Shown piece by piece: positions 11,371 to 12,664 of a stretch of DNA of 64,000 nucleotides. Positions within the stretch are counted from its first letter, which is position 1, and each line of letters starts with the position of its first letter. This DNA comes from Gammaproteobacteria bacterium. GTDB taxonomy: Bacteria > Pseudomonadota > Gammaproteobacteria > Pseudomonadales > Alcanivoracaceae. Where the stretch lies: assembly GCA_018067045.1 (NCBI GenBank), contig JAGPVL010000023.1, forward strand, positions 1 through 64,000. Reading direction: 5' to 3'. The position numbers and the translations under genes are program-made. The notes under the pieces are model-generated. The model saw nothing but the letters and a program-made list of their open reading frames with translations, was not told the DNA's origin and ran no database searches.

Positions 11371-12081
11371 ATGACTTTTAGTGGCGGCAATCTTGTAGGC
11401 ATGGGCTTATTTTTGGGGGCACTTGCTCTTGTTAGTGGCTGTGATAACGGGCCTGATACCAAGCAAACCAACCAAGACGCGGAAGTAGCGAGCGCTGTGG
11501 ATGAGGTTGCGCGCGTGTCTGGTCAGAGTGCAGATGAGCAGCTAGATTGCGGCAAGCTCAGTTATCTTTTGTCGGCGCTGCCAAGTGCGGTGAAAATTGA
11601 TGGCCTCGAAGAGGTTTACCGAGGCTGCGAGTCCCCAATGACGGCAAATCTGCAGTTTGAGGACGACGAGAAAGCGGTTTATTACACCATCAGTGTACTG
11701 CAAACGGAGATGGCAGATTTGCCTGGGCAAGGAGATCACTGGCAAGGTTTGTTGGACATGAATCGCCAAGCCATTGAATCGTTGATTCGCACGCAAGAGG
11801 CGATGATTGAGGTGGGTAATAAGCCTGTCACGTCCGGCGCCGCGGATCCTCTAACCGAAAGTGAACGTGCTCGCTTGCCGAGGCAAGTGACGTTGCCAAA
11901 TGGCGCAAACGCAATGATTTATAATGAAGATGAAGATTGGGCGCTTGTTTCACTGATGAAAGATCGTTATGCCCTGAGAATTGACCTATTGAGTTATGCT
12001 GATATGGCGCCGGACAGTGACGCGGCTGAGGCTGCGTTAATGTCTAAAGTCGCTGAGATTAACTTTGCCGTATTGAAGTAG
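11371..12081 (+). CDS. Predicted lipoprotein, function unknown
   Basis: 236 residues. A lipoprotein signal is clear: a hydrophobic stretch ending in LALVSGC, where the Cys (about residue 28) would be lipidated, followed by Asp, which in E. coli favours retention at the inner membrane. The mature part is acidic, with three further Cys residues (two near 56-90) that might form a disulfide. The start follows a strong gaggagg site. No family was recognised. Its natural intrinsic terminator appears to have been split by the insertion element beginning 30 bp downstream. Confidence 0.75.
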   Translation: MTFSGGNLVGMGLFLGALALVSGCDNGPDTKQTNQDAEVASAVDEVARVSGQSADEQLDCGKLSYLLSALPSAVKIDGLEEVYRGCESPMTANLQFEDDEKAVYYTISVLQTEMADLPGQGDHWQGLLDMNRQAIESLIRTQEAMIEVGNKPVTSGAADPLTESERARLPRQVTLPNGANAMIYNEDEDWALVSLMKDRYALRIDLLSYADMAPDSDAAEAALMSKVAEINFAVLK

Positions 12082-12101
12082 TTTTACGATGAATAAAAGG
12101 A

Positions 12102-12111
12102 GCCGCATTAG
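12102..12111 (+). repeat. Left copy of 10-bp target-site duplication
   Basis: gccgcattag directly abuts the left terminal inverted repeat and is repeated exactly at 12645-12654 beside the right one. Confidence 0.8.
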
Positions 12112-12143
12112 CACTGCTGTCCCACGGTTTCTATGAGACCGCT

Positions 12144-12182
12144 AATAAGCCCACTAGAACAAAAGGTTCAAGTGGGCTTATT
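12144..12182 (+). terminator. Terminator-like hairpin near left end of element
   Basis: Arms of 17 bp (12144-12160 and 12166-12182) pair with one mismatch around a five-base loop, and the right arm ends in TTATTT. It would stop transcripts entering from the lipoprotein gene. Confidence 0.6.
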
Positions 12183-12257
12183 TATGGTTCATCGCGGATT
12201 TCCGGGAAAAGTCCGATGAATCATCAAAGCATTCAAATGAATTCGGCAGCAGAATTG

Positions 12258-12297
12258 GCTCCTGCAAGGCGGGCAACATCAAGGCTTTTGCAGGAGC
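12258..12297. repeat. Internal 10-bp inverted repeat of the element
   Basis: gctcctgcaa at 12258-12267 is exactly complementary to ttgcaggagc at 12288-12297. Confidence 0.7.
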
Positions 12298-12332
12298 GTG
12301 CCCTGCAAGCGAACAACCGCAAGCCCTAAGAC

Positions 12333-12417
12333 TCGCCTGCAAGCAGCCTCCCACAGCCCCTCTGCACGGCACCATCTCAAATTTCTGCTCACCTTGTGGG
12401 AGGCTGCTTGCAGGCGA
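12333..12417. repeat. REP-like 23-bp inverted repeat
   Basis: The 23-base arms at 12333-12355 and 12395-12417 are perfect reverse complements (right arm tgtgggaggctgcttgcagg plus cga). The right arm closely resembles a sequence at 25423-25449, so this is a dispersed repeat resembling extragenic palindromes (REP). Confidence 0.7.
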
Positions 12418-12586
12418 TCTTTCCCGACCCCGGCGAAAGCGTTAAATCTCGGGAACCGAGCGCAGCGAGGCGGCGGAAGGGGGTGCCCTTGATTCGGCTA
12501 CGCCTCTCCCTTCGGGGCGGCGCAAAAAGACGCGCGTTCACTCGCCACAGGCGAAACACTGCCTATCAATTCACGAAGACAATAAA

Positions 12587-12616
12587 AAAGCGGAGCTCGT
12601 GACAAAGCTCCGCTTT
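12587..12616 (-). terminator. Terminator-like hairpin near right end of element
   Basis: Perfect 11-bp stem aaagcggagct / agctccgcttt with an 8-base loop. On the minus strand it is followed by TTTTTT, so it should block leftward transcription entering the element. Confidence 0.6.
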
Positions 12617-12644
12617 AAGTTCGTTCAACTGTGGGACAGCAGTG

Positions 12645-12664
12645 GCCGCATTAGCGGCTTTTTT
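12645..12664 (+). terminator. Displaced intrinsic terminator of the lipoprotein gene (includes right target duplication)
   Basis: gccgc-atta-gcggc followed by TTTTTT. Bases 12645-12654 are the second copy of the target duplication. In the empty site this hairpin would lie about 20 bp after the lipoprotein stop at 12081. Confidence 0.75.

Follow-up and report, generated by a model that had tools for sequence, protein, structure and literature searches.

A probable MITE of the terminator-targeting, ISAbe18-like IS4 group in an Alcanivoracaceae genome

The window, that is the whole stretch of 64,000 nucleotides analysed here, contains a short gene for a lipoprotein-like protein of 236 aa that has no match in Pfam, and downstream of it a mobile element of 533 bp (12112-12644) that is inserted in the terminator of this gene. 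Counted from the first letter of the window, the features are:

11371-12081, plus strand: short upstream gene for the lipoprotein-like protein, whose terminator is the target; orthologues in genomes G001 and G004
12094-12101, plus strand: remnant of the target terminator (A-tract, 5' side) left of the insertion
12102-12111, no strand: left copy of the 10-bp target-site duplication, GCCGCATTAG
12112-12129, plus strand: left terminal inverted repeat (TIR) CACTGCTGTCCCACGGTT of an IS4-family (ISAbe18-type) MITE; same ends on the insertion sequence (IS) and ISAbe18 copies treated below
12144-12182, no strand: left end-proximal hairpin AATAAGCCCACT...AAGTGGGCTTATT with a weak T-tract, ATTTAT, at 12180-12185
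12186-12427, plus strand: truncated ISL3-family MITE with TIR GGTTCATCGCGGATTTCCGGGAAA, right end missing; about 14 more copies in the genome
12333-12355, plus strand: REP-like arm TCGCCTGCAAGCAGCCTCCCACA, inverted pair with 12395-12417; many copies in the genome
12395-12417, minus strand: REP-like arm, inverse of 12333-12355
12428-12560, no strand: third repeat module, common to contig C37 of the host genome (G000) and, in longer form, to the copy on its contig C24
12587-12616, minus strand: right end-proximal hairpin similar to the one found at the right end of the IS; minus-strand T-tract
12627-12644, minus strand: right TIR AACTGTGGGACAGCAGTG
12644-12664, plus strand: complete terminator GGCCGCATTAGCGGCTTTTTT surviving downstream of the element
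12645-12654, no strand: right copy of the target-site duplication, GCCGCATTAG

The initial annotation had described perfect 14-bp terminal inverted repeats flanked by an exact 10-bp direct repeat, and both are borne out: CACTGCTGTCCCAC (12112-12125) and GTGGGACAGCAGTG (12631-12644) pair at 14/14 positions, the pairing reaches 17/18 when extended, and the duplication matches 10/10 on both flanks, its right copy being followed by CGGCTTTTTT up to 12664. Removal of the element together with one repeat yields AAAAGGAGCCGC-ATTA-GCGGCTTTTTT, which folds into a continuous terminator hairpin (-15.2 kcal/mol), just as had been proposed. The claimed lack of an internal transposase also holds, as no transposase-like ORF is present between 12112 and 12644, where the longest ORFs comprise 64-68 aa in overlapping frames. 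The interior, which had been read as a series of inverted repeats, is structured far beyond expectation, with a single-strand fold of -242.3 kcal/mol for the element versus -174.8 ± 6.2 kcal/mol for shuffled sequences (z = -10.9). Outward-facing terminators at both ends, on the other hand, stand only in part. End-proximal hairpins do exist, and the right one occupies the position of a hairpin that is conserved in the related IS, where it marks the 3' end of the transposase gene. As its T-tract lies on the minus strand, however, it would stop transcripts that enter from the right and not those that leave the element, and the left hairpin with its weak T-tract was not called by the terminator scan.

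We read stretches around matches to the element in the host genome G000 (3.3 Mb, 44 contigs, 96% complete). A second full copy of 556 bp is located at about 121577-122132 on contig C24 (L027, 2078-2633) and has the same mosaic of modules. Its duplication measures 11 bp with one mismatch (10/11), and its target is a different terminator, GGGCCGC-TTAC-GCGGCCC-TTTTTT. In addition, a third right end, at C24:76431, adjoins yet another terminator. The additional copies with differing duplications that mobility had led the initial annotation to expect are therefore present, and the window element cannot be a product of chance. Furthermore, recurrence of the same mosaic at two unconnected places points to movement of the composite in one piece.

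The segment 12186-12427 is a truncated copy of a repeat of about 312-315 bp with ends GGTTCATCGCGGATTTCCGGGAAA. This repeat is found about 14 more times in the genome, and its end sequence also recurs in Alcanivorax relatives. Complete ISL3-family elements in genome G018 (L249, L250, L251) carry an ISL3 transposase between the same ends, and the repeat is therefore an ISL3 MITE; elements of this family, IS and MITE alike, have ends GGTTCATCGCGG and A/T-rich duplications of about 8 bp (TTTTTTAT, ATAAAAAA, TTTTTTT), the first of which lies inside the T-tract of a terminator. A run of A or T directly adjoins the outside of 54 of 63 ISL3-type ends, as opposed to 27 of 189 control stretches. ISL3 elements thus insert in the T-tract and not in the loop as the IS4-type elements do, so that two families with no relation to each other occupy the same niche. 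The ISL3-family MITE (window 12186-12427; L028-L045) is present in about 15 copies in G000, with insertion in terminator T-tracts and inverted REP pairs; the window copy likewise carries an inverted REP-like pair. The sole ISL3-type match in G000 is weak and partial (C14:439-768). In the window the ISL3 module starts right after ...AAGTGGGCTTATTTAT, the T-side of the end-proximal hairpin of the IS4-type element. This arrangement is consistent with transposition of the ISL3 element, the source of the nested module, into a terminator-like end of the IS4-type MITE and subsequent loss of its right end; the fragment would then adjoin an internal terminator-like T-tract of the host MITE, a type of site used by ISL3 elements. 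The third repeat module (window 12428-12560; L027 about 2470-2540; L033; L041) is accompanied by a TTTTGCTTACTTTTCTTTGGGCAAGCAAAGAAAAGTGAG palindrome in its longer copies.

When 84,980 species genomes were scanned for the end sequence, at least 120 stretches matched. Pairs of ends 1271-1273 bp apart flank a DDE transposase of about 380-400 aa, whose ORF is intact in L086, L110 and L072. This partner IS of about 1.27 kb (1271-1276 bp) resides in Alcanivorax, Cellvibrionaceae, Amphritea and other hosts. Its transposase matches NCBIfam NF033592 above the cut-off (E-values of 8e-74 to 6e-82) and contains the Pfam domains DDE_Tnp_1 (PF01609) and DUF4372, which place it in the IS4 family; the translations contain a Y..R...E......K stretch (IYKDRWQVELFFKAIKQ), a candidate YREK motif. 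Duplications of 9-11 bp fit the value of about one helix turn (8-13 bp) given for this family. Members of the IS4Sa subgroup have ends CA------T, lengths of 1150-1750 bp and repeats of 8-10 bp (PMC2266710), and the partner IS agrees with this description in its ends (CACTGCTGT) and in its length. The closest named relative that we found is ISAbe18 from Acinetobacter plasmids, the Alcanivorax transposase being 58.7% identical to the ISAbe18-type enzyme. ISAbe18/IS4Sa-type IS (about 1.27 kb in ISAbe18) and the window element share the ends CACTGCTGTCCCAYAGTTT, duplications of 9-11 bp and terminator sites; the window element differs in lacking a transposase and in its mosaic interior. The transposon with matching ends whose existence the annotation had made a touchstone has thus been found. 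In the same-genus genome G001 there is a transposase homologue with 72% identity over 377 aa and no recognisable left end beside it, and the transposase of the relative G008 is 100% identical to the Alcanivorax nanhaiticus copy.

Two further observations concern the IS itself. In the full-length copies L175 (1403-2674), L176 and L180 the terminators at the two ends differ and a matching duplication is missing, as though two sites had been brought together by recombination of one copy with another. The left end (L175 1403-1530; L180 1402-1520) contains an inverted repeat, AAAAAGCCTGAACC...GGGAGGTTCAGGCTTT, that spans the probable ribosome-binding site of the transposase gene. IS10 and IS50 limit transposase expression from outside promoters, and by analogy this structure would be a possible guard of the same kind, one that would fit life behind genes.

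Taken together, the segment is short, has terminal inverted repeats, a target duplication and no transposase, and is accompanied by other copies and an autonomous partner with the same ends; MITEs with these ends also occur in other hosts. We therefore regard it, with a probability of about 0.9, as a MITE of the ISAbe18-like group of the IS4 family with IS4Sa-type ends, which would have been mobilised in trans by the terminator-targeting DDE transposase of this group. The proposal of a mobile non-autonomous element is well supported by the full second copy elsewhere and by the partner IS. Mobility today is unproven, since a matching IS4-type transposase was not found in the host genome (96% complete, 44 contigs), and the window element is probably stranded there.

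Insertion into terminators is not peculiar to the window. When 94 distinct ends are read outward, positions 15-18 are T in 66-86% of cases, and a TTTT is usually first met 13-15 nt out; the T-tract is in place at 67 of these ends versus 76 of 467 control placements further out (p = 2e-25). A larger set gave the same picture, with a T-tract starting 11-18 nt outward at 105/151 ends versus 118/745 control placements, and under a strict T5 criterion at 78/151 versus 22/745. The T-tract is at the expected place at all 15 ends in Thalassolituus marinus, at 7/7 in Oceanospirillaceae SAT97 and at 5/5 in A. hongdengensis. Where both ends and the duplication are known, in the window, L027, L069, L082, L121 and L136, the rebuilt sites are terminators; at several pairs of ends matching duplications are absent. 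An independent set is provided by Acinetobacter plasmids, in which 22 of 22 ISAbe18-like copies are flanked by perfect duplications of 9-11 bp. These copies occupy 18 distinct sites, and at most of the sites the cut runs through the loop of a bidirectional terminator, e.g. AAAAATGGGAGC-TATA-GGCTCCCATTTTT. Landing in terminators, initially claimed for one element, is strongly supported across hosts and is a property of the ISAbe18-like IS4 group. The targeting is not absolute: in SZUA-41 the T-tract is at the expected place at only 4 of 16 ends, and preferences are weaker or different in this MAG, in 42_54_T18 and in an older MITE family of Alcanivorax. ISAbe18 has also been recovered under selection from the interval that separates a promoter from a start codon (PMC8552602).

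The end-sharing MITEs of the SZUA-41 MAG (L083, L087, L093, L098, L100, L102, L103) are repeatedly inserted in one shared sequence, AGGCATGCCTTGTCTCTAC, another palindromic target. A MITE family of 247 bp with the same IS4-type ends (L136 4132-4378; G046, G048, G043, G040) is present in more than a dozen copies in the Alcanivorax genome G046. Its terminator enrichment is moderate (12/37 ends versus 13/185 control placements), its folded sites are unremarkable, and its preference for terminators lies below that of young IS copies.

Natural empty sites are available for the related ISAbe18 elements. The puuE-uraD terminator that is the target of ISAbe18 is intact in other plasmids that match over 440/440 nt at 100% identity, and the empty site of L294 matches over 440/440 nt at 99.8%. 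The suggested comparison with related genomes was thus successful for ISAbe18 and failed at the window locus itself in G001, the one genome of the same genus, where the lipoprotein gene is retained beside a different downstream neighbour and no natural empty site exists. The corresponding region of G004 has no terminator comparable to the window site and therefore no syntenic empty site, and none was found in sister species for the Alcanivorax MITE L136, the flanks of which are not conserved at the insertion.

Among 32 duplication-confirmed sites, 25 have AAA before and TTT after the duplication, and the spacing between the two is 17-19 bp in 21. The target rule would accordingly read AAA-N17-19-TTT around a duplication of about 10 bp, and we favour terminators as the commonest source of sites with this spacing. 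As this pattern is the common denominator of the sites, DNA shape may outweigh the hairpin in recognition. It is conceivable instead that the transposase reads an extruded hairpin (cruciform) or the termination complex. Such recognition would account for insertions centred on the loop, for palindromes with at least 8 of 11 pairs at 15/32 confirmed sites as opposed to 71/3200 shuffles (2%) and for the palindromic sites without tracts in L086 and L098, and there is a parallel in IS1272, which has been described as targeting DNA secondary structures (PMC4923244). Nevertheless, we consider it unlikely, because correctly spaced tracts accompany a weak palindrome in L110, L290, L293, L296 and L304, tract spacing is more constant than pairing, and a duplication of about 10 bp is what IS4-family strand transfer ordinarily leaves. 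We therefore favour a transposase that reads the sequence or shape of the duplex.

Much less credible is the idea that targeting is only apparent, with insertion at random and purifying selection sparing those copies that came to rest in harmless terminators. Terminators are indeed intergenic and tolerant, and the copies seen are mostly natural and established. Selection, however, would not set a base-pair register, whereas the T-tract starts at a fixed distance (mostly 13-15 nt) outside the element and the cut is centred on the loop, and in L294 and L297 one terminator was hit in two plasmids with different duplications of 9 and 10 bp. Least plausible of all, to the point of near dismissal, is a fixed BIME/REP cluster that resembles a MITE by accident. 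An inverted REP pair and a repeat in about 15 copies are present, but TIR and duplication match the IS group and the second copy of the whole composite with another duplication contradicts a fixed cluster. A REP/RAYT origin was rejected, as a search that included positive controls found no Y1 (RAYT) transposase in the host genome.

With targeting through duplex sequence or shape as the preferred reading, the following course of events can be proposed. An IS4-type DDE transposase would move the MITE in trans and make a staggered cut of 9-11 bp centred on bidirectional intrinsic terminators. It would prefer targets in which about 17-19 bp separate an A-tract from a T-tract, and the two tracts would usually enclose a GC palindrome. 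The duplicated 10 bp or so cover the loop along with a portion of the stem, which would leave every flank with a tract and a short hairpin. The right flank in the window retains a full terminator, so that the lipoprotein gene should still end properly and its neighbour should be shielded; judged from the sequence, termination at the locus thus appears to be preserved, and polar damage would be avoided. The right-end hairpin of the MITE, like that of the IS, would halt inbound transcription.

Insertion sequences that hit terminators are already known. IS1272/TnSha1 of the IS1182 family targets hairpins, often transcription terminators (PMC4923244), as does the group described here, but has a transposase of another family, inserts bluntly, deletes part of the stem-loop and leaves no duplication, whereas our group produces a duplication of about 10 bp spanning the loop. 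IS1272-type targeting was rejected for our group, in which duplications measure 9-11 bp and the rebuilt terminators are intact. The IS known to insert in REP palindromes (PMC1525189) resemble our elements in their palindromic intergenic target; REPs form a fixed sequence family, however, while our group hits unrelated terminators. The pneumococcal BOX/RUP/SPRITE clusters (PMC10969869) likewise consist of small nested elements, some of them terminator-like, but belong to different families, and terminator targeting is not what that work describes. Strong arm specificity in some IS4/IS4Sa elements has been noted without naming terminators (PMC2266710). In the open-licence literature, which we covered in part, no report of terminator targeting or of this target rule was found for the ISAbe18-type IS4 group, and to that extent the rule appears to be new. 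The E. coli element IS4 is reportedly present in the pheST attenuator and is said to have a target resembling AAA-N20-TTT.

Our findings show that a widespread group of IS4 elements, to which a named IS of Acinetobacter plasmids belongs, targets terminators by a simple rule, and they make the choice between DNA-shape and hairpin recognition directly testable. Terminators emerge as a safe-harbour strategy for mobile DNA, which accounts for where these IS and MITEs accumulate. At even odds, they constitute a niche partitioned by unrelated families, ISAbe18-type IS4 elements using loop and stem and ISL3 elements the T-tract, in which nested mosaics accumulate without harm to the flanking genes. 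If this is true, each element brings along terminator-like sequence and so becomes a landing site for the next, which suggests that the mosaic intergenic repeats of these bacteria grow by nesting at terminators.
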